Virus record (IMG/VR): IMGVR_UViG_3300025666_000043
Span: 1 to 24,216 of that record
Direction: 5' to 3' (one strand)
Length of the DNA stretch: 24,216 bases
Source of the DNA: a virus
The position numbers were made by a program, and so were the translations under genes. Below, in pieces: positions 5,465-22,087 of the stretch; positions within the stretch are counted from its first letter, which is position 1; each line of letters starts with the position of its first letter. The notes under the pieces are model-generated. The model was not told where the DNA came from and searched no databases. It saw only the letters and a program-made list of their open reading frames with translations.

Positions 5465-7890
5465 TGGCAAATAAAAATAGATCTATAAATATCAATCCAA
5501 TGGACTTCCCTAACCACAAAACACCTGACAAAGAGAAGGCTGGTGAGGATTACGGATTAAAGGTAGCGAAAGCTATACAGTATGAATGGTTTAATAAAAA
5601 CGATGGTGCTTGTAGATATTACTCTCAACAGTCTGATTTTTATAGGTTAAGGCTATACGCCAGAGGTGAACAATCTGTAAAGCCATATAAAGAAAAATTA
5701 TCTATAAACGGATCAACTGAGCAACTTAACCTTGACTGGAAACCACTTCCTGTTGTTCCTAAGTTTGTTGATATAATGGTTAACGGCATGAATGACAGGC
5801 TCTTTACGCCAAAGGCATACGCTGAAGACATAACCTCATCTGAGGATAGAGATAGATACCAAAGAACTATTGAGGCAGACATGATAGCAAAAGATCTATT
5901 GATTCAAACAAAAGATGATTTTGGCATAGACGCATTTAACGTAAACCCAGACGATTTACCAAAAACTAATCAAGAGCTACAGCTTCACATGCAGCTTGAC
6001 TATAAGCCTTCTATTGAGATAGCAGTAGAGACAGCTATTTCTACTGTTTTTGAAATGAATAATTTTCAAAATGTAAAGTATAGATATAACAAAGACCAAG
6101 TAACACTTGGCATTGGTATCGCTAAACATGAGTATTCATTCAATGAGGGAATAAGAATAAAATACGTAGACCCTGAGAATTGCATATATAGTTATACAGA
6201 AGATCCGTTTTTTGAAGATGTGTTTTATTGGGGTGAGGTAAAAAGAGTACCTATTTTAGAATTAAAAACAATAAATCCTAAATTAACACAAGAAGACATT
6301 GAAGATATTAGAGCGACTAGCAGTGCTTGGTCAACCGCATATTCAACATCACAACCTTATGGAGATACTATTTTTGATAAAGACACTGTCAATGTATTGT
6401 ACTTTAACTATAAGGACGATAAGAACTTCATTTACAAGAAAAAAATATTAGCAAACGGAGGAAGCAGAGTAATAAGAAAAGATGAGGATTTCAATCCTGA
6501 AGAAGATAGCGAATACTTCACTAAGATTGAAAAAAGAATTGATGTATGGTATGAGGGGGCTTTAATTTTAGGGTCAGAAAGACTTATAAAATGGGGCCTA
6601 TCAAAAAACATGGTACGCCCAGAGGCAGCATTTCAGAAGACATATTCAAATTACGTAGCTGTTGCACCTAAGATGTACAAGGGTAGATTTGATTCACCTG
6701 TACGTAGAATGATTTCACCAGCAGATCTTCTTCAGATGGCGCATTTAAAAGCACAACAAGTCTTATTAAAGATAGTTCCTGATGGTGTATTTATTGATGC
6801 TGACGGTATAAATGAGGTAGACTTAGGAAACGGTGGAACTTATTCCCCCCAAGCTGCATTGGACTTATACTTTTCTACGGGTAGTGTTATTGGTAGAAGT
6901 TATACTGGTGACGGAGAATTTAACAATGCTAGGGTTCCTATACAGGAACTGAATAGTAGTAGCGGCCAAAGTAAGTTACAGTCATTAATGGGTGCTTATG
7001 ATAAGTACTTGAATATGATCAGAGATGTGACGGGTATAAATGAAGCTGTTGATGCTTCTAGCCCTGACCCACATTCATTGGTTGGTCTGCAAAAGATGGC
7101 AGCATTGAACTCAAATACAGCAACGAAGCATATCCTAGAGGCAAGTTTATTTATGACAAGGCGTATGGCTGAATGCATTTCTTTACGTATCTCTGATGTG
7201 CTAGAGTACTCTGAAGACAGCGAGGAGTTTGCTAATCAGGTGGGTGGATATAACTTAAACATATTAGAGGATATAAAAAATTTACATTTACATTCCTTCG
7301 GTATTTTTATTGAAGTTTCTCCAGACGAAGAACAAAAAGCTGCGTTAGAGCAGAATATACAATTAGCATTATCGAAGGGTGGTATTGATTTAGAGGATGC
7401 AATTGATGTGAGAGCTATCTCCAATTTGAAAATGGCAAACGAGTTGTTAAAACTTAAGAGAAAGCAGAAAATTGCTGCTGATCAAGAACGAGAGATGCAG
7501 AGGATTAAGGCTCAGGGTGCAGCTAACACAGAATCAGCTCAAGCAGCAACTGCTGGCAAAATGGAGTTACTAAACGCAGAGACACAAAGTAAGATGGCTA
7601 TTAAAAAAGCTGAATCTGCTGGCAAAATTGAAGAGTTAAAAGCTGAGGCTCAACTGAAACATGGGTTAATGGAGAAGGAGTTCCAGTATAACATGTCTCT
7701 TAGGTCTGCTGAAAGTAATATAACTGAAAAAAGAGAAATTGACAAGGAGGACAGAAAAGACAATAGAGTTGATAAGCAGTCCTCTAATACGTCTAAATTG
7801 ATAAAGCAAAGACAGGATGGAACACCTCCGACTAATTTTGAATCAAGCGAAGATACTCTTGATGGTTTAGGCTTTGATGGGTTTGGTTAA
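5464..7890 (+). CDS. Portal protein
   Basis: An 808-residue portal, the dodecameric ring at the capsid vertex through which DNA enters and leaves. The portal-like pattern includes PVVPKFVDIMVNGMNDRLF (about 96-114), the start of the wing, and a stem/clip region around 520-555 (VTGINEAVDASSPDPHSLVG, then QKMAALNSNTATKHI). That pattern is familiar from portals of large marine and crAss-like phages. Residues 657-778 form a long Lys/Glu/Ala-rich coiled coil, probably the barrel or an internal extension, followed by a Gly/Asp-rich tail. Direct coupling to the terminase gene supports the call. The family call is confident, the domain borders are approximate. Confidence 0.9.
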   Translation: MANKNRSININPMDFPNHKTPDKEKAGEDYGLKVAKAIQYEWFNKNDGACRYYSQQSDFYRLRLYARGEQSVKPYKEKLSINGSTEQLNLDWKPLPVVPKFVDIMVNGMNDRLFTPKAYAEDITSSEDRDRYQRTIEADMIAKDLLIQTKDDFGIDAFNVNPDDLPKTNQELQLHMQLDYKPSIEIAVETAISTVFEMNNFQNVKYRYNKDQVTLGIGIAKHEYSFNEGIRIKYVDPENCIYSYTEDPFFEDVFYWGEVKRVPILELKTINPKLTQEDIEDIRATSSAWSTAYSTSQPYGDTIFDKDTVNVLYFNYKDDKNFIYKKKILANGGSRVIRKDEDFNPEEDSEYFTKIEKRIDVWYEGALILGSERLIKWGLSKNMVRPEAAFQKTYSNYVAVAPKMYKGRFDSPVRRMISPADLLQMAHLKAQQVLLKIVPDGVFIDADGINEVDLGNGGTYSPQAALDLYFSTGSVIGRSYTGDGEFNNARVPIQELNSSSGQSKLQSLMGAYDKYLNMIRDVTGINEAVDASSPDPHSLVGLQKMAALNSNTATKHILEASLFMTRRMAECISLRISDVLEYSEDSEEFANQVGGYNLNILEDIKNLHLHSFGIFIEVSPDEEQKAALEQNIQLALSKGGIDLEDAIDVRAISNLKMANELLKLKRKQKIAADQEREMQRIKAQGAANTESAQAATAGKMELLNAETQSKMAIKKAESAGKIEELKAEAQLKHGLMEKEFQYNMSLRSAESNITEKREIDKEDRKDNRVDKQSSNTSKLIKQRQDGTPPTNFESSEDTLDGLGFDGFG

Positions 7891-12993: not shown

Positions 12994-15900
12994 ATGGCTA
13001 AACTTAGTAGAAATTTCTTGAAAGGGGTTATGAATAAAGACGTTGATGAACGGCTATTGGCTGACGGTCAATACCGAGACGCTTTAAACATTGACGCTAT
13101 TACATCCGAAGGCTCAGACGCAGGTACGGTTCGTAACATAGCTGGTAATAGAGAGGTAGCCGATTTAGGTAATGCAGCTGGGGAGCCTGCTGTAAACGCA
13201 CGTACTATTGGTGCTGTGACATCAGACATTGATAATATTATATATTGGTTTGTTACGTCTGACAATTATGACGGTATTTACGAGTACAATGAAACAACAG
13301 GGGATTCTAATAGAATTTTACAGTCGTCAACAGGGCAGTTAAATTTTAGTAAAGACTATATAATCACTGGACTAAATTATATTGATGGGTTCCTGTATTG
13401 GACAGACGACTTAAATCCACCAAGAAAAATAAATATATCTACAGTTAGAGAGTGGACTGTCAGCGATCCTAGAATAGATGATTACATATCTGTAATTGTA
13501 GCACCGCCATTAAGAGCACCGTCAATAGAGATGTTGCTGCCGAGTGATGAGTCAACAAATATGGAGGACAAATTTCTTCAGTTCGCAACAAGATACAAAT
13601 ACAGTGACGATCAATACAGTGCCTTATCTCCGTTCTCACCAACGGCATTTATTCCAGGGGATTATGTTTTTAATTTTGCTTCTGGGAATAATGAAGCGAT
13701 GGTGAATACTAAAAATAAAGTAAATATAACCTTTGAAACAGGAGGTAGATTTGTTGAAGAGGTTCATTTATTCTTTAGAGACTCAACGAGTTTAAATGTA
13801 AAAAGAATAGAGAAATTTAATAAGGAGACGTTAGGTATTAACAATAATACATCTTACCAATTTATTTTTAAAAATAGCAAAGAGTACTCAGTCCTTGCTG
13901 ATTCACAAGTGACAAGGCTATATGACAATGTACCCTTAAAGGCAAAAGCGCAAGATGTTGTAGGTAGAAGATTAGCTTATGGAAACTACGTTCAAGGTTT
14001 TGATATTACTGATTGTTCAGGAGTAGATGTTGGGATAGACTACACTGTTGATTATGTTTCTGAAGAAGTAGCTAATGGTACGCCTATACAAACATTCAGA
14101 AGTGATAGGGACTATGAGATTGGTATTGTGTACTGTGATGATTACGGAAGAACAACAACTGTACTTACAACACCTATAGTTAATGGTGAAGATAATAATA
14201 ATAATATATACATACCGCCAACTGCGTCTGACACTGGGAATAGTCTTGTGGTAAAAATTAAACACAAGGCTCCTTGCTTTGCTACTAATTATAGATTAGT
14301 ATTAAAGGAAAGTAAAAGAAATTATTACAATGTATTTCCTGTGCTTTATTACGCTGACGGAACTTATAGGTATTTTCTAATAAACAAATCAGATATAGAT
14401 AAGTTCTCTATTGGAGAATATCTTATTTTTAAGTCCAATGCTTCTGGTGTTACATATTCAAACAAAAAATACAAGATCTTAGATGTGGAATCAAAGCCGA
14501 CAAATTTTTTAGGTGGGTCACAAGTTTCTGGGATATATTTTAAAATTAATGATGATGACAATGATTTCTCGCCATCAGCATTAACTACCTACTATAGTTT
14601 AGGAAAAGGTTCAGCAGGAGCATTTAAGAATCCTGATAATATTTTTGATGATATTTATTGTTACAGGGACACTAGGGCTGCTATAAACCCAGGTACTGAA
14701 TTTAAAATGATCGAACCCCCTATTTTTTACGGCCAAGGATTGGATGGATTATCTATTTCTATGGTTACTGCTATAGATTCTTCTGGTTCCGCTACAGGTG
14801 GTTATGATTATTTTGATACGTTTGAAGCTCGTGACATGAGAGTTGAGATACAGATAGAAACATCTACAACTTTTAAATATAGAATACATCAAGATGTAGG
14901 CCCGTTTGCAGCGTTTAATCCTGGTTGGATAGGGAATCCAATACCTATATCAACTATTCCACAAGGGTTAGCAATATCAATAAATTCGAATCAAACTGGC
15001 ATTCCATTTAATATCGTATTTTCCCAGTCATCTGGATATACAGTAGGTGATAGGTGGATAATAAATTGCAGAGGAGAGGAGATAGATCTATCTTATGCTG
15101 TAACACAATCAAACCCAGGTCTTAATTGGATCGAAGGATTGGGTTATCATTCAGGTGTTGCCATTTCTAATCTTGGAGATATTCAAATCCAAACAGGTGC
15201 TATAGTTACGATTACCATTGCGGCTACTAATGTTGGGGGTGTGTCTGGGCAAGCACAAGTTTTTCCTCCTAGTAGTAGGGCGTATGAAAACATAGAAGAA
15301 TGGTTCTATGAGGAAGGAGCTTCAGGTACAATAATAAATTACGAAGGAGCTTCACCATCCAACACTGGCAGTTCTAGGATGTATTTCAGAAGGGGTAGTA
15401 ATTACGAACAGAAGTATGCATCCCCAAATCCAGGGTATCTAGCAGATAGTATTACCCAAAGAGGTATGGATGAGCAGGTTAGAATGATGATTACTGGTCA
15501 AGGAATAACCCAATATAATACTTGTACTAATGCGCATATTCAAGTAGCATGGAGGGTAGATCAATTAGATAATTCATTATTAGCAGAAACAGAGCCAAAA
15601 TCAATAGACACAGAAATATTCCATGAGCTAGGTAGAACAATGCCGATTATAGGCAACGACCATCAGGTGATGTGGCGATACTTAGACTATACAAGTGCGT
15701 CTGGTGTTTGGGGTAATGAGACATGGTATGCTTCGTTACCTAGTAATCAAACAAATATAGGTATGCTCAGTCCATCAGGTGATCCATCTGTAACTGATAT
15801 GCCTCACACCTATATTGCTGGGGATATTATTTATGTAAATAATGATTCAACAATATTAGGGCCTCCCACTGGTGAGTACGAAGTTCTGTATGTTCCTAAT

Positions 15901-17064
15901 GCTTATAATGTAATAATAAATGCTCCTTTTACTGCCGCTGGGCCTTCTACTGGTGGTGGCGCATGTTTTTATAGTGTGGATGAGATAACCGTTGAGCAAA
16001 ACCAGGTCGGTATAACAACGCCTGCTATCATAAAGATAAACCATCCCCAGACACGTAATAGTTATTATAACGCCTATGCTTTTGGAAATGGCTTGGAGTC
16101 AAATCGTATACGTGATGATTTTAATGAAACTATGCTTGAGCAGTCGATACGTGCCTCGGTAATTATTGACGGGTACAAGGAGGAGAGAAAAGAAGCCTCT
16201 ATTTGTTACAGTGGTGTATATAGGAATAATTCATCTATTAATAGATTAAATGAGTTTAACTTATCTATAGGCAACTACAAAAATCTTGATGTAGAATTTG
16301 GTAGCATTCAAAAAATGCATGCCAGAGATACGGATTTAGTAGTGCTTCAGGAGGATAAAATTAGCAATGTATTAAATCAGAAAAACATACTAAAGGATGC
16401 TGCTGGTGGTGGTCAGGTATCTAGTGTAAATGCAGTATTAGGAACCCAAGTCCCTTTCCCTGGAGAATATGGAATATCTACAAACCCAGAGTCGTTTGCA
16501 GAGTGGGGAGGCAATATGTTTTTCACAGATGAAAGAAGAGGAAGCGTTATAAAGATTGAGAATGGACAAATAGGTGACATCTCAGAGTTGTGGATGAAAG
16601 ATCATTTTCGAGATTTATTTAGCAGTGCTCCGAAAACACAAAAACTTGGAGTGTACGATCCTTATAAGCAACAATATATAATAGCGTCAAACAATAACCC
16701 TTCTTTAGCGTGTAGATTATCACTAAGGGAAAATTATGCTAATTACCCTTCAGAAACTTCTGGTGGGATATATGTAAACAACAACAAGCCCGACATAATA
16801 GTGCTTAGTAACACATCTTGGACAGTTTCTATTGTTTACTCAGGGGGGTCTGATTGGGTGACAGGGTATCCTTCATCTGGTTTTGGTGATGAAAGTATAT
16901 ATTTAGGAATAGCAGACAACATTAGTAATTTTTCAAGAACAGCCATAATTAAATTTACATATTGTGACACATCCTATGTTGAATTTACTATTACACAGGC
17001 AGTAGGAAACTCGCTGACGGTTACACCTTTATTATCATATAACGGTAATTTTAAAAAATTTTAA
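12994..17064 (+). CDS. Large tail nozzle/hub-like protein with C-terminal BACON domain
   Basis: A 1356-residue tail protein. Its start, GVMNKDVDERLLADGQYRDA (about 11-30) and then SEGSDAGTVRNIAGN, resembles the opening of tail stabilisation or nozzle proteins of marine and crAss-like phages. It follows the same logic as the start of T7 gp12 (loss of wild sequence around a list of positions, then a 'reference' name). The middle is mainly beta, probably propeller-like, with repeated IYWFVTSDN and FLYWTDDLNPPRKINI-type strands. Residues 1265-1336 form a BACON domain: SNTSWTVSIVYSGGSDWV, PSSGFGD, RTAIIKFTY and the closing FTITQA. BACON domains are common in Bacteroidota glycan-related proteins and occur in crAss-like phages. 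The position before the fibre gene suits a tail hub with a surface-binding domain. Confidence 0.82.
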   Translation: MAKLSRNFLKGVMNKDVDERLLADGQYRDALNIDAITSEGSDAGTVRNIAGNREVADLGNAAGEPAVNARTIGAVTSDIDNIIYWFVTSDNYDGIYEYNETTGDSNRILQSSTGQLNFSKDYIITGLNYIDGFLYWTDDLNPPRKINISTVREWTVSDPRIDDYISVIVAPPLRAPSIEMLLPSDESTNMEDKFLQFATRYKYSDDQYSALSPFSPTAFIPGDYVFNFASGNNEAMVNTKNKVNITFETGGRFVEEVHLFFRDSTSLNVKRIEKFNKETLGINNNTSYQFIFKNSKEYSVLADSQVTRLYDNVPLKAKAQDVVGRRLAYGNYVQGFDITDCSGVDVGIDYTVDYVSEEVANGTPIQTFRSDRDYEIGIVYCDDYGRTTTVLTTPIVNGEDNNNNIYIPPTASDTGNSLVVKIKHKAPCFATNYRLVLKESKRNYYNVFPVLYYADGTYRYFLINKSDIDKFSIGEYLIFKSNASGVTYSNKKYKILDVESKPTNFLGGSQVSGIYFKINDDDNDFSPSALTTYYSLGKGSAGAFKNPDNIFDDIYCYRDTRAAINPGTEFKMIEPPIFYGQGLDGLSISMVTAIDSSGSATGGYDYFDTFEARDMRVEIQIETSTTFKYRIHQDVGPFAAFNPGWIGNPIPISTIPQGLAISINSNQTGIPFNIVFSQSSGYTVGDRWIINCRGEEIDLSYAVTQSNPGLNWIEGLGYHSGVAISNLGDIQIQTGAIVTITIAATNVGGVSGQAQVFPPSSRAYENIEEWFYEEGASGTIINYEGASPSNTGSSRMYFRRGSNYEQKYASPNPGYLADSITQRGMDEQVRMMITGQGITQYNTCTNAHIQVAWRVDQLDNSLLAETEPKSIDTEIFHELGRTMPIIGNDHQVMWRYLDYTSASGVWGNETWYASLPSNQTNIGMLSPSGDPSVTDMPHTYIAGDIIYVNNDSTILGPPTGEYEVLYVPNAYNVIINAPFTAAGPSTGGGACFYSVDEITVEQNQVGITTPAIIKINHPQTRNSYYNAYAFGNGLESNRIRDDFNETMLEQSIRASVIIDGYKEERKEASICYSGVYRNNSSINRLNEFNLSIGNYKNLDVEFGSIQKMHARDTDLVVLQEDKISNVLNQKNILKDAAGGGQVSSVNAVLGTQVPFPGEYGISTNPESFAEWGGNMFFTDERRGSVIKIENGQIGDISELWMKDHFRDLFSSAPKTQKLGVYDPYKQQYIIASNNNPSLACRLSLRENYANYPSETSGGIYVNNNKPDIIVLSNTSWTVSIVYSGGSDWVTGYPSSGFGDESIYLGIADNISNFSRTAIIKFTYCDTSYVEFTITQAVGNSLTVTPLLSYNGNFKKF
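16786..17001 (+). other. BACON domain coding segment
   Basis: This segment encodes residues 1265-1336 of the nozzle-like protein. The BACON pattern is clear: Trp in TSWTV, a second Trp in SDWV, PSSG..GD, an N.S..SRTA strand and the final ITQ. In Bacteroidota this fold is linked to carbohydrate- or mucin-related proteins, and a direct glycan-binding role is often assumed but not proven for all members. Its placement at the C-terminal end, with a linker of about 15 residues before it, suggests an added, exposed domain. Confidence 0.82.
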
Positions 17065-17067
17065 TAA

Positions 17068-19950
17068 ATGGCTAAAACGGCAACATATAAATATAGTTAC
17101 ACTGGAAGTGTAGATTATTCTTTCTCAAATGTAGTTATGAGTGATAAAAATAAACTATTATCTAATAACAAGCTGAGGGGACTAGAAGGAATAGACGCTA
17201 TACCTTATGATGGATCTACCGTAACCATGACTGCTAATGCTAATGCAGTCAGTGGGCAAAAAGATTTTGAGCCAAGTGCTAACAATAAGATGTATTGGCT
17301 TATTACAAATGATATTTATTCTGACAGCGATTATGACACTTTTATATCCCTAGCCACAGAGGTACTACCTGTATTCGATGCAGTTGCAAATGAGTTCGTT
17401 GGTCAATTCGTGTTTACTAATCCCAATAATTTCAAGGAGTTGTATATGATATGGGACTACAGAGACAACTTAGGCACAGGGGCAGCGTCTCATGATGGTT
17501 CAGACTTTGTTAAATATTTGGATGTAGAATATGGATCTGATATAGGGAGAGCTGGTGTTGGATATGAGATTACAGATGTGCCTGTACGGATAAAGGTGCA
17601 ATGGAAAGATGTTGTCGTTGCTGATACGGGGTATGTTGGTCTAAACTCACTGGCTAACTACAACGATTTAATAGCGGCAGGTGTTGTTGATGACGATATA
17701 AACCTATCTTTACCTTATGATGGCACTGTAAATAACGGAACGGGGAGTATTTATTTTAACAAGTATACTACTGACTCAGCAGCTATTATAAAAATAGAGA
17801 CACCTTTATCTACAGCGTCTATAAAGATTGAGACAGTAGTACCTTCATTAAATTCATTTTACATTGAAACAGTTGGAGGAACTTTAGCTGACGTTTGTAA
17901 TCAGTGTCCTACAACTCAGTATTACCATAATGGTAGTTTACCTGAGCCAGTAATCGGAGACATTATATTCACAAACTCAGACGGGTCTACAGCTTTTGTA
18001 GGGAGGAATGGGTATCACTTAATGGACTCTGTCGCTTGTGCTGGCGCACCTATATCTGATGGTATGTGGTTGCTTATAGATGAAAATGGCCGTGTATTAC
18101 AGTCTGACACATGTAATTGTCAGGTATTCGCACCACCTGTTATTACCCCTGTTGATTATGAATTTAAAGTCAATGATGTTGTTGACATTACACCAAAGAC
18201 ATCAGGGACACCTACATCTTGGGAAATTGTTACAACTTGTAAGGAGTATACGATAGCTGATACACTTGAGGGTTTAATGTATACATATACAGACTGTAAA
18301 GATTCGCCAAAAACAGGTATAGTTGGATCACTATTGTCTAATACTGTGATATCGTCAACTTTACCAGTAATCACTTCAGGAACAGGAACTGTGACGCTTA
18401 TAGGTACAACTGATCAAGGAGACTTGCCTAATGGATTAAAATTTTCAAAGAGCTCTGGGGCATTTACAGGACTACCTACAAGCACAGGTGTATATGATAT
18501 TGTCTTAAGAGCTACAAATTGTTTTGGCACTAGCAATGAGGTTACGATTGGTGTATCAGTAGTCATGGATGTATTATTAAAACCGTTTGCTATTGACTCA
18601 GGAGAGCCAAAAAATACAGGTGATGCTGCATGTGCCTTGAATGCATTCTCATGTGAAATAATGTATCATAATGGAAAAGGTTTGATCCCTGTATTGAATG
18701 ATGTTATATTTACGAAATCAGGAGGTACTGGGCGATTAATGGGTGGTGACATGTGGTTTTTCATAGCTAACTCTACTTATAGCATTAAGATAGACGCAAT
18801 AGGTACGGTAATAGAGATAAGTGAATGCCCTGTGTCAACTACAACTACAACTACAACTACTTCAACTACTACAACTACTACCTTGCCTGTTGGAGACTAC
18901 TTCACTGCTACATTGTGTTCAGATGGAACAACAACGGCAGTCATATTTGATTCAACAGCATCAGGCCTTGTCGCTACGAATATAGTAAAGGCAACGGACG
19001 GTAACTGCTGGACGGTAACTGCTGCAACAACGGCATCTTATCCGTATACAGCTATAACAAACCCAGCAACGACTTATGCTAGTTGTGATATTTGTTTAGG
19101 AGTAACAACAACTACGTCCACGACAACCACAACAACAGCTAGGGTTATCACTGCGTTTGACTTAAACCCTTCTATTTACACAGATTCTGGGGATGCGTGT
19201 ACTCATGGCGGTGGCCCTTATACAGCTTATTACCATGACGGTTCTTTGGCAAAGCCAGTGGTAAATGATTTCATATTCACAGACGCATCAGGGCTACTTC
19301 CTTTTGATGGGGCTAGTGGATTTTATTACATGCCTAATTCTGGTGACTGGGTTATACAAGTTTCTGCTACAGGGCAGGTGTTATACGCTTCAGCTTGTGC
19401 AGGTATTACAACGACAACAACGACAACTACTATCGCTGTTACCTATTATGACGTTGAGAGATGTGACAATGCAGCTACTGCTGTTATTGATAGTACTGGG
19501 CCCGTTATATCAAATGGCACGGTAGTAAAAGCAGATGACGGAGTTTGTTATAATATTTTAAACATCTCAGTTTCTGTAACGGCCATAGCTTCGGTCTTGT
19601 TTACGTATACAAACTGCGATGATTGTATTGGAGTTACGACTACAACGTCAACAACGACAACAACTACAACTACAACAACTACAACTACAACAACAACTAC
19701 AATCCCCCCATTAACAAGGTTAGTTATGAATTTCGCAGCAACTCAGGTGGGGGCATGTACAGGCTTGGCAATTCAGGTGTGGGCTGATGGGCCTATAGGG
19801 GGGCCTACTGGTTTCATATACACAACAGAGGATGGAACCATAGAGGCAGCTTCAGGGTATTACAAATCTTTTTATGGGTCAACAGTTTATGAGTACGTTA
19901 GAAAACAACCAATAACGGGCTGGCAAGCTGGATCATATGAATGTCTATGA
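17068..19950 (+). CDS. Modular tail fibre/adhesin with polythreonine linkers
   Basis: A 960-residue protein starting 3 bases after the nozzle gene. Residues 1-263 are a beta-rich N-terminal part, probably for attachment to the tail. Module A1 spans 264-351. Residues 352-499 look like a He_PIG immunoglobulin-type domain (SGTPTSWEIV, then LPNGLKFS, FTGLPTSTGVYDIVLRATN) with a Cys-containing insert at about 389-447. Then comes A2 (507-589), Thr tract, B1 (611-679), Thr tract, A3 (697-780), Thr tract, B2 (791-856), a 22-codon Thr tract and a diverged A4 (882-960). A modules share Y[YM]H[DN]G, [DN].IFT, G..[YF] and a final Cys; B modules share Cys, GxC and CxxC. The role in host binding is inferred from position and modularity. 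Confidence 0.8.
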   Translation: MAKTATYKYSYTGSVDYSFSNVVMSDKNKLLSNNKLRGLEGIDAIPYDGSTVTMTANANAVSGQKDFEPSANNKMYWLITNDIYSDSDYDTFISLATEVLPVFDAVANEFVGQFVFTNPNNFKELYMIWDYRDNLGTGAASHDGSDFVKYLDVEYGSDIGRAGVGYEITDVPVRIKVQWKDVVVADTGYVGLNSLANYNDLIAAGVVDDDINLSLPYDGTVNNGTGSIYFNKYTTDSAAIIKIETPLSTASIKIETVVPSLNSFYIETVGGTLADVCNQCPTTQYYHNGSLPEPVIGDIIFTNSDGSTAFVGRNGYHLMDSVACAGAPISDGMWLLIDENGRVLQSDTCNCQVFAPPVITPVDYEFKVNDVVDITPKTSGTPTSWEIVTTCKEYTIADTLEGLMYTYTDCKDSPKTGIVGSLLSNTVISSTLPVITSGTGTVTLIGTTDQGDLPNGLKFSKSSGAFTGLPTSTGVYDIVLRATNCFGTSNEVTIGVSVVMDVLLKPFAIDSGEPKNTGDAACALNAFSCEIMYHNGKGLIPVLNDVIFTKSGGTGRLMGGDMWFFIANSTYSIKIDAIGTVIEISECPVSTTTTTTTTSTTTTTTLPVGDYFTATLCSDGTTTAVIFDSTASGLVATNIVKATDGNCWTVTAATTASYPYTAITNPATTYASCDICLGVTTTTSTTTTTTARVITAFDLNPSIYTDSGDACTHGGGPYTAYYHDGSLAKPVVNDFIFTDASGLLPFDGASGFYYMPNSGDWVIQVSATGQVLYASACAGITTTTTTTTIAVTYYDVERCDNAATAVIDSTGPVISNGTVVKADDGVCYNILNISVSVTAIASVLFTYTNCDDCIGVTTTTSTTTTTTTTTTTTTTTTTIPPLTRLVMNFAATQVGACTGLAIQVWADGPIGGPTGFIYTTEDGTIEAASGYYKSFYGSTVYEYVRKQPITGWQAGSYECL
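18838..18882 (+). repeat. Threonine-codon tract 1 in fibre gene
   Basis: Fifteen codons, 14 Thr (mostly ACA and ACT) and one Ser, encoding residues 591-605 between modules A2 and B1. The + strand lacks G here. Confidence 0.95.
19105..19137 (+). repeat. Threonine-codon tract 2 in fibre gene
   Basis: Eleven codons, ten Thr and one Ser at the fifth place, encoding residues 680-690 between B1 and A3. The codons mix ACA, ACT, ACG and ACC. Confidence 0.93.
19408..19431 (+). repeat. Threonine-codon tract 3 in fibre gene
   Basis: Eight consecutive Thr codons encoding residues 781-788 between A3 and B2. It is the shortest of the four tracts. Confidence 0.92.
19636..19701 (+). repeat. Threonine-codon tract 4 in fibre gene
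   Basis: Twenty-two codons, 21 Thr and one Ser at the fifth place, encoding residues 857-878 between B2 and the C-terminal A4 module. The later part alternates ACA and ACT and is the most repetitive DNA of the window. Slippage by whole codons would change linker length and keep the frame. Confidence 0.96.
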
Positions 19951-20876
19951 AAAAATTAAGGTTAATATCAGCACAACCTGCCACTGATTATTACGCATGG
20001 CAGGTAGAGGTTTATTTACATAACTTTCTTGACCTTGGATACAACGGTAATTACATTGACGTGCTTGGTGCTTTTAGTGATGAAGGTATACCCCAGTCTT
20101 GGTTACTACTACAGCAGAAGTTTCCTTTTGTGCGTTTCTTTTTTTATAGAGATGACATGAAGGTAAGGAATTACCAGCCAGCAATTCAGGCAAACATCAT
20201 GAAGAAACATTTTCACTCTCATCCTGAGTTAAAAGATGAGGCAATATTTTTTCATGACAGCGATTTTATATTTACAAAGTATTTTGATTTCGATAAATTC
20301 TTAGGTGATGATATATGGTATTTCTCAGACACGATCTCTTATGTTGGGGGTGAATATATAGAGAGCAAAGGAGAGGGTCTACTGGAGGGAATGTGTTCGG
20401 TGGTAGGTTTGTGTGCCTGTAAGGTAAGATCATCACAGGAGCACTCCGGGGGTGCTCAAAAGCTAATGAAAAATCTAACTCCTGAGTATTGGGAAGAGGT
20501 GGAGAACGATTCTATAAATCTATATAATTGGCTACTACAAAAGAAAGATAATTATGGAGACGCTGAAGTGAATGACATTCAAATATGGACAGCTAGTATG
20601 TGGTCTGAACTATGGAACGCATGGAAGCATGGTCATGAGGTAAGAGTCCCAGTTGAGTTTAATTTCTGTTGGGCTACATGTCCAATTGAAAAGTGGGATT
20701 TATTAAGCTTTTTCCATAACGCAGGAGTAGTAAACGAGAAGACAGGTTTATTTTTCAAGGCTGGTTATATCAATAAACTTCCATACGAAACAGATATAGA
20801 CGTTAATAAAAAACACTGCTCGTATAATTATTATAAGGCTGTACTCGATACAGGTAAAAAAACAGTATTAATTTAG
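19947..20876 (+). CDS. Glycosyltransferase-like protein (GT-A type)
   Basis: A protein of 309 residues from the ATG at 19947, which overlaps the fibre stop as ATGA; an ATG at 19941 would add two residues. Numbering from 19941, residues 100-112 read EAIFFHDSDFIFT. This is a hydrophobic strand ending in Asp106-Ser-Asp108, the DxD metal and nucleotide-sugar motif of GT-A enzymes. Further pieces are FVRFFFYRDD (63-72), WYFSDTISYV (126-135), HSGGAQKLMKN (168-178) and a late His259 in FHNAGV. There is no signal peptide or membrane segment, so it acts in the cytoplasm. I recall related proteins near tail genes of marine phages. The sugar and acceptor are unknown; the overlap with the Thr-rich fibre suggests the fibre as a possible acceptor. 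Confidence 0.68.
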   Translation: MKKLRLISAQPATDYYAWQVEVYLHNFLDLGYNGNYIDVLGAFSDEGIPQSWLLLQQKFPFVRFFFYRDDMKVRNYQPAIQANIMKKHFHSHPELKDEAIFFHDSDFIFTKYFDFDKFLGDDIWYFSDTISYVGGEYIESKGEGLLEGMCSVVGLCACKVRSSQEHSGGAQKLMKNLTPEYWEEVENDSINLYNWLLQKKDNYGDAEVNDIQIWTASMWSELWNAWKHGHEVRVPVEFNFCWATCPIEKWDLLSFFHNAGVVNEKTGLFFKAGYINKLPYETDIDVNKKHCSYNYYKAVLDTGKKTVLI

Positions 20877-20888: not shown

Positions 20889-21653
20889 ATGGGAATTGAA
20901 ACAGTAAGTTTTTCGCCAAGAGCTAAAGGATGGAATACTTTTCATTCATTCGTGCCTGACTGGATGATAAACATGAATAGCTCATTATATACATGGAATA
21001 ATGGAGACCTGTATCTACATTATACAAAAGACCTAGCCTCAAATAATATTTATAACAGATATTATGGTGTTTCTTATCCCTCTACTATAACAACTGTTTT
21101 TAATAAAAATTCAACCGATGCAAAGGTTTTTAAAACAATATGTTTAGAGAGCAACAGGGCCTGGAAGGCAGAGCTTACTACTGATTTATCTACAGGTATA
21201 ATTGAGCAGGATTATTTTATAGAGAAAGAGGGAGATTTTTATGGCTATATAAGAAGACCAGAAGGTGATTTAGATGTAGAGATGCTATCAACACAAGGAA
21301 TAGGAGAGCTAACATCTATAGCGTCACTTACACTAACATTTAATTTTGATTTTGATACTGTTGGGGAGGGGGATGCATTATATATTGTAGGTATTCCTAC
21401 AGGATCATTTGCTAATCAGTTTACTTTTATAGGTAATGTAACAACATATACTAGCAATACAATAACTGTAGACGCTATAACAAACGCACCTGTACCTACG
21501 GATTTTATTGTAACAGCTAAGAGCAGTGTTGCTGAGTCATATGCCCCTAGAGGTTATTATATGGAGGTTAAATTAACAGACACACCAGCTTTTAATGCAA
21601 AAAGTGTAGAATTGTTCTCAATTTCTTCAGAAGTATTTAAAAGTTCACCTTAA
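20889..21653 (+). CDS. Virion structural protein of unknown role
   Basis: A 254-residue protein. The start (VSFSPRAKGWNTFHSFVPDW) leads into NSSLYTWNNGDLYLHYT, a block of short strands, then VFNKNSTDAKVFKTICLES and IEKEGDFYGYIRR (about 109-121). The second half (about 150-250) is a beta-sandwich-like unit with VGEGDALYIVG and GYYMEVKLTD. I recall this W.SF.P / NGDLY.H / FIEKEG..Y.YI arrangement from structural proteins of large marine phages, where it may be part of a longer protein. It has no catalytic motif I can see. It lies between the GT-like and GNAT-like genes, so it belongs to the tail region. The N-terminus looks conserved, which supports the start chosen. Confidence 0.62.
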   Translation: MGIETVSFSPRAKGWNTFHSFVPDWMINMNSSLYTWNNGDLYLHYTKDLASNNIYNRYYGVSYPSTITTVFNKNSTDAKVFKTICLESNRAWKAELTTDLSTGIIEQDYFIEKEGDFYGYIRRPEGDLDVEMLSTQGIGELTSIASLTLTFNFDFDTVGEGDALYIVGIPTGSFANQFTFIGNVTTYTSNTITVDAITNAPVPTDFIVTAKSSVAESYAPRGYYMEVKLTDTPAFNAKSVELFSISSEVFKSSP

Positions 21654-21673: not shown

Positions 21674-22087
21674 ATGGGCTTTGATGTTAGAATGATAATT
21701 GATGGTGACTATGAGAATATTCTCTGTAAATGGTGGAAAACATGGAGATGGACACCGCCCGTAAAAGATTTGCTTCCTGAAAATGGAAATGGAGGCATAA
21801 TGGTATCTAAAGATGGGGTTGATATTTGTGCTGGGTTTTTATTTTTAACAAACTCAAAGACAGCATGGAGCGAATACATAATCTCCAACTTTGAGTACAG
21901 AGACGAAGACAGGAGTGAAGCTATTGAATTTTTAATAAACACATTATCGTATATGGCAAAAGACAGGGGTTACACTTATGTTTATGTTTCGTTAAAGAAT
22001 AATCCGTTAATTGATAGGTATACTAATTGTGGATATGTAAAGGGTAGTACAGGTTGTACCGAAATGATTAAAATATTAAATAATTGA
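21674..22087 (+). CDS. GNAT-like N-acetyltransferase
   Basis: A 137-residue protein with the layout of a GNAT acetyltransferase, which moves an acetyl group from acetyl-CoA to an amine. An N-terminal strand and helix (VRMIIDGDYENILCKWWKTW) are followed by strands GGIMVSKDG and ICAGFLFLTNS, then SEYIISNFEYRDEDR, where acetyl-CoA usually binds after the fourth strand. A helix (EAIEFLINTLSYMAKDRG) and YVYVSLKNNPLIDRY.NCGY complete it, the latter the typical GNAT end. The classic Q/RxxGxG/A is not clear: the loop reads EYRDEDRSEA. The substrate is unknown. A second ATG (21692) would remove six residues. Confidence 0.66.
   Translation: MGFDVRMIIDGDYENILCKWWKTWRWTPPVKDLLPENGNGGIMVSKDGVDICAGFLFLTNSKTAWSEYIISNFEYRDEDRSEAIEFLINTLSYMAKDRGYTYVYVSLKNNPLIDRYTNCGYVKGSTGCTEMIKILNN

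Follow-up and report, generated by a model that had tools for sequence, protein, structure and literature searches.

Directly after the muzzle ORF of a virus record (IMG/VR IMGVR_UViG_3300025666_000043), analysed here as a window of 24.2 kb (24,216 nt), lies a fibre ORF (17068–19950, + strand, 960 aa) in which a sequence-only reading had described two types of module, A and B, in strict alternation and joined by Thr-rich linkers. The locus raises the questions of whether this repeat is real, where the fibre sits on the virion and what the linkers are for.

The window includes TerL, portal, capsid and muzzle genes that identify it as part of a crAss-like phage. The Pfam muzzle families that mark Crassvirales were both found, crAss_MUZ (PF25731, E=2e-14) in the ORF at 12994–17064 and crAss_MUZ_C (PF25729, E=9e-16) in the ORF at 20889–21653, each above its curated cutoff, and primase and other Crassvirales markers were not seen within the 24.2 kb, which is a genome fragment. 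The nearest TerL is that of an unclassified Manatee Spring phage (64 %), followed by those of the Flavobacterium elemo phages (43 %) and then of Cellulophaga phages; phi13:2 served as an outgroup in the PhiCrAss001 study (PMC10172136). A 137-aa ORF at 21674–22087 (phrog_17252) keeps the same position in the Manatee Spring phage, where its counterpart carries an annotation as a subunit of an N-terminal acetyltransferase complex.

The fibre repeat and its relatives

The fibre, encoded throughout on the + strand, begins with an N-terminal domain (17068–17832, residues 1–255) recognised by tblastn and from fusions in the related loci L008 and L056, followed by module A1 (17845–18123, residues 260–352) and a He_PIG Ig domain (18124–18582; PF05345, 30.2 bits against a cutoff of 24). 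The remainder consists of A2 (18583–18828, residues 506–587), a disordered Thr/Ser linker of 16 residues (linker 1, 18835–18882, residues 590–605), B1 (18886–19104, residues 607–679), a Thr/Ser linker of 11 residues (linker 2, 19105–19137, residues 680–690), A3 (19138–19404, residues 691–779), a Thr linker of 8 residues (linker 3, 19408–19431, residues 781–788), B2 (19432–19635, residues 789–856), a Thr/Ser linker of 22 residues (linker 4, 19636–19701, residues 857–878) and A4 (19711–19950 including the stop codon, residues 882–960). The A modules are about 85 aa long with a Cys pair and the B modules about 70 aa with four Cys. The phrog_21885 profile matches the fibre in three stretches (E=1.8e-16), and A3 is its best match. 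At 27 % identity, the N-terminal domain resembles a domain found in FPSV proteins of Flavobacterium psychrophilum phages, and it also resembles one in vB_FspS_tant8-1. Nested in the Ig domain is a Cys-containing insert (approximately 18238–18423, residues ~391–452) that is absent in relatives L025 and L040; the Manatee Spring phage (L219) has a comparable block at the end of its muzzle.

The internal A/B repeat was confirmed. When module pairs were scored against 500 shuffles per pair, significant internal similarity was found between A1 and A3 (p=4e-11), A2 and A3 (p=5e-9), A1 and A2 (p=8e-6), and B1 and B2 (p=1e-7), all four pairs lying far above the shuffles, and no similarity above chance was seen between A and B. 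The further A copy that had been placed ahead of the He_PIG-like region is hence genuine, and A2, A3 and A4, said to begin about 190 residues apart, start at 506, 691 and 882. A4 pairs weakly with A3 (p=0.004), and a profile of 27 A4-like C-terminal domains matched the A profile (hhalign single-pair E=5e-5, probability 67 %) and gave no match to the B profile, in agreement with its description as a diverged A. In an AlphaFold2 model of the fibre built from 25 aligned sequences (mean pLDDT 80), the order of strands and helices is identical across A1–A4, and likewise across B1 and B2, as a shared fold within each type would require, while each of the four Thr tracts has pLDDT values below 50. 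On homology and predicted secondary structure together, the A modules are argued to share a fold, and so are the B modules. A Foldseek comparison of the whole fibre with the PDB returned only weak and uninformative matches to multi-Ig and cadherin ectodomains (TM ~0.1), and no solved homolog of A or B was found there. All four Cys noted in the B modules occur without exception in the 27 modules compared, and the first and last Cys of the A modules form a pair that is nearly invariant across 51; the SG[FY]Y-like turn attributed to the A modules is clear in A3 and A4 and not in the others.

IMG/VR scans combined with iterated module profiles yielded about 50 loci with 34 distinct AABAB fibres; an alignment of 51 A sequences was too diverse to serve as query for the locus search, and bacterial genomes scanned with the A module gave no relatives. 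The usual order, seen in about 35 distinct relatives, is N-A1-Ig-A2-T-B1-T-A3-T-B2-T-A4, the last A4 being optional, and the proposed alternation from A2 to A4 is therefore a conserved arrangement of homologous modules. Natural variants lack A4, lack B2, have only A modules or have no linkers, as expected if the modules could be found in other orders. A4 is missing from L004–L006, L046, L050 and L052–L054; a single B and a C-terminal A4 occur in muzzle-length ORFs in L042, L048, L056–L058 and L061–L064; L068 and L069 have three A and no B; and Cellulophaga phi18:1 gp62 has one A module. Across phages, each of B1 and B2 is orthologous to the B module at the same position, B1 of the window sharing 66 % identity with B1 of L010 and 28–40 % with B2 of the window. 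The conserved order, this positional orthology and the variant arrangements support the view of an old modular fibre selected at the protein level.

The closest relative, L002, contains a single in-frame TAG (6741–6743) in module A2. Stop-codon recoding was considered and rejected, as the L002 muzzle is intact and two genes of the window end in TAG; because that muzzle is intact, the TAG is read as a nonsense mutation or an assembly error.

A neighbouring predicted glycosyltransferase and virion Thr tracts

Two features lie beyond the sequence-only reading: the fibre is located inside the muzzle gene, and the next gene, for a predicted glycosyltransferase, is a partner to its Thr linkers. The linkers themselves, though disordered, are under amino-acid selection. 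Between the window and L002, 72 of 73 linker amino acids are kept and only 30 of 73 codons, and the linkers after B1 and B2 do, as had been observed, have the same residues in differing, mixed codons. Linker lengths across the relatives are specific to position, namely 11–12 residues for linker 2 (33 of 34 relatives), mostly 8 for linker 3 (23 of 34) and 22–27 for linker 4 (27 of 28).

The gene at 19941–20876 (+ strand), which overlaps the 3′ end of the fibre gene by 10 nt, belongs to phrog_4417 ('unknown function') and is predicted to encode a GT-A glycosyltransferase with a DxD motif at residues 106–108. The matches listed for its AlphaFold2 model (pLDDT 93.6) in the PDB are glycosyltransferases, the top folds being WbbM, glycogenin-1, UGGT, XXYLT1 (xyloside xylosyltransferase) and a1,3-GalT (E ~1e-6, probability 1.0), with TM-scores to known glycosyltransferases of about 0.5. 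Both D106 and D108 are invariant in 26 homologs, as is the histidine of an HNAG motif downstream, and six homologs from Gram-positive phages have the equivalent D95/D97 and the histidine. From the model, the PHROG 4417 product is predicted to have the GT-A fold, and the resemblance to retaining glycosyltransferases hints at an α-linked sugar.

A gene with a Thr tract lies immediately upstream of the PHROG 4417 homolog at 59 of 64 loci in a first sample, at 79 of 80 viral loci, and at 33 of 38 loci in Firmicutes bacterial genomes drawn from a one-genome-per-species collection. Only 45 of about 545 other ORFs in the Firmicutes sample have such a tract (Fisher p ~4e-27, uncorrected for relatedness); the enzyme loci are related to one another and raw counts overstate their independence. 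Among isolates, the major tail proteins encoded just 5′ of the enzyme in Lactococcus CHPC971, Enterococcus phiFL1A and Arcanobacterium TPWB06 are Thr-tailed, and a Thr-tailed protein is found just upstream of the homolog in Chryseobacterium MA9V-3. The reverse sample, 58 loci picked with a DNA pattern for poly-Thr, is weaker and points in the same direction: eight include the enzyme, in every case immediately downstream. The other 50 show no PHROG 4417 enzyme in the stretch examined, so such tracts occur in its absence as well. Among the families encoded downstream of a random sample of poly-Thr viral ORFs, phrog_4417 ranks first (8 of 42); it is not among the upstream families listed for those ORFs, and Pfam found no other glycosyltransferase family in the downstream genes.

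Two divergent homologs (L256 and L257) have no Thr tract nearby. At several loci scored as lacking a tract, one was found in another reading frame or in a small ORF that separates the capsid gene from that of the enzyme. The major capsid ORF of Enterococcus phage 9183 and of a Lacticaseibacillus prophage (L230) ends beside the slippery heptamer CCCAAAA, and the −1 frame leads into a Thr tail. Such tails after the major capsid ORF, with CCCAAAA just before the stop, are located at 3788 in L018 and 6896 in L230, where the sequence makes programmed frameshifting to produce tagged capsid subunits likely; further tracts are at 6801 in L222, 3035 in L238 and 3744 in L021. Within a single prophage, the capsid, connector and tail proteins often carry near-identical C-terminal Thr tags, among them TTTTTTTAAV, TTTTTTSHA, TTTTTTTQA and TTTTTTSA, as in L239 (3690–4853, 4872–5204 and 6365–6991) and likewise in L221, L226, L227 and L236.

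Since relatedness inflates locus counts, tail proteins from phages that have the enzyme were compared with homologs from phages that lack it. In family 1 (phiFL1A-type major tail proteins) a Thr tail is present in 4 of 4 members with the enzyme and 0 of 19 without (Fisher p=1e-4), and the members lacking both include proteins 82–88 % identical to the phiFL1A tail protein. In family 2 (Bacillales-type prophages), which was collected by the body of the tail protein alone, the figures are 6 of 6 and 0 of 25 (Fisher p=1e-6), counting C-terminal tails only; two members without the enzyme pass the T-count threshold at other sites in the protein, and the tail of L356, which has the enzyme, is short (GTTTSTTSA). 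There are at least three label changes on the tree of each family, and in family 1 three are forced by well-supported branches; the label is clustered on the trees, and the events hence number a few, not dozens. Within the lineage of the fibre, L008 has no fibre Thr tract, no B module and no enzyme, and neither an enzyme homolog nor a fibre Thr tract was found in the stretch examined of the Manatee Spring and elemo phages. The enzyme family and virion Thr tracts are thus linked by presence and absence.

The Thr tracts might instead be plain flexible spacers, with the glycosyltransferase acting elsewhere, for instance on phage DNA or, in seroconversion or superinfection exclusion, on polysaccharide of the host surface. 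The majority of sampled poly-Thr loci do lack the enzyme in the stretch examined, and known phage glycosyltransferases often target the host surface or DNA, according to PMC12619734. This explanation is unlikely, as it does not account for homologous tail proteins that are Thr-tailed only when the enzyme is present, for the same C-terminal Thr tag on capsid and tail proteins of one prophage beside the enzyme, or for the near-complete conservation of linker residues. On the sequence evidence, O-glycosylation of virion Thr tracts by the enzyme would be the parsimonious mechanism. We consider it reasonably probable that PHROG 4417 serves as a dedicated O-glycosyltransferase of virions and is gained and lost together with a transferable Thr tag in phages of Bacteroidota, Firmicutes and Actinobacteria. 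The same C-terminal tag would mark capsid and tail proteins as well as connectors, at times apparently through a −1 frameshift at CCCAAAA, and in the crAss-like lineage it would take the form of internal fibre linkers.

An interrupted muzzle gene

The muzzle of the elemo phages is a single protein of 1493 aa. In the window, its first part (12994–17064, + strand, 1356 aa; phrog_14478, E=7e-193) matches the elemo muzzle by blastp, residues 1–1230 corresponding to 1–1238, and the C-terminal part, corresponding to elemo residues 1260–1491, is a separate gene (20889–21653, + strand). Near the C-terminal end of the first part, at approximately 16840–17001, is a weak BACON-like domain (PF13004, 21.7 bits, below the cutoff of 25). 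As the flanking ORFs are the two halves of the elemo muzzle, the BACON-like segment, the fibre gene and the gene that follows it lie at a break in an ancestral muzzle gene. Muzzle and fibre are fused in one ORF in L008 and L056, and the module-profile search found more muzzle-length fusions among the relatives; in L008 the fibre ends after A2 and the C-terminal part of the muzzle follows directly.

The interruption and the fusions support attachment of the fibre to the muzzle. In PhiCrAss001, tail fibres attach to collar hubs and not to the muzzle (PMC10172136), and the fibre of the window is without a solved counterpart, so that it might belong to the head or collar and have no more than the operon in common with the muzzle; a single ORF for muzzle and fibre in two relatives and a fibre–enzyme cassette inserted into the muzzle gene make this improbable.

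A proposed role and known systems

Slippage at DNA repeats, leaving the Thr tracts as neutral filler between modules, is a very improbable origin. Short tandem repeats were detected at the DNA level, but the codons are mixed, synonymous changes are many and amino-acid changes almost none, and linker lengths follow position across relatives.

Because the enzyme gene adjoins the fibre gene and its homologs are almost always beside a gene for a Thr-tract virion protein, the phage probably sugar-coats its own linkers. Our preferred reading, to which we give a probability of roughly 0.7, is that the fibre is a muzzle-attached modular adhesin of a crAss-like phage with Thr linkers O-glycosylated by a dedicated phage enzyme. 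The N-terminal part would probably attach to the muzzle, and the C-terminal part would form a string of small β-rich beads separated by disordered poly-Thr spacers of a length fixed by position. The PHROG 4417 enzyme would most likely act in the host cytoplasm and attach sugars to the linker Thr residues ahead of assembly or in the course of it, and the sugared linkers may then become extended, protease-resistant, mucin-like rods that keep the beads apart for surface binding. We infer the glycosylation of Thr, its cytoplasmic timing, the stiffening, the binding to the host surface and the pairing of the Cys.

Virion glycosylation is known from mycobacteriophages Che8, Corndog and Myrna, in which capsid and tail-tube proteins are modified at their C-termini by phage-encoded glycosyltransferases (Freeman et al. 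2023, cited in PMC12619734 and PMC12363180). A phage-encoded glycosyltransferase, here a predicted one, is common to both systems. However, Che8 gp108–110 belong to phrog_8858, 1721 and 854 rather than PHROG 4417, and comparison with PHROG 4417 profiles by hmmsearch and hhalign gave no significant match. The Che8 glycosyltransferase genes are at the far end of the genome, whereas the enzyme gene of the window adjoins the fibre gene, and the capsid and tail proteins of Che8 have TGS/DGS rather than Thr tracts at their ends, whereas the target in the window would be internal fibre linkers. A search of the open-access literature returned nothing relevant on poly-Thr together with a phage glycosyltransferase.

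The muzzle of the window is homologous, by Pfam crAss_MUZ and crAss_MUZ_C, to gp44 of PhiCrAss001 (Bayfield et al. 2023, PMC10172136) but, unlike that of gp44, its gene is interrupted by the fibre–glycosyltransferase cassette. The A module is homologous to PHROG 21885 (145 aa, unknown function) and to phi18:1 gp62; in the latter one A module ends a short protein, whereas the fibre has four, alternating with B modules and Thr linkers. The BACON-repeat tail protein of p-crAssphage (PMC10136315) is also a repeat-built crAss-like tail protein, and the window has the weak BACON match before the fibre, but the repeats of the fibre are A and B modules, and Pfam gave no BACON match within it.

Virion sugars are reported to alter antibody recognition of phages (Freeman et al., as cited in PMC12363180), and a sequence tag that predicts them would for that reason be useful. 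The proposed role would give a testable function to a common phage family, now labelled 'unknown function', that is found in phages of several host genera and at the 38 Firmicutes loci, and would predict which phage proteins carry sugar, and where. For the crAss-like phages, it would represent an unusual design of receptor fibre, with beads on probably glycosylated rods at the tail tip.
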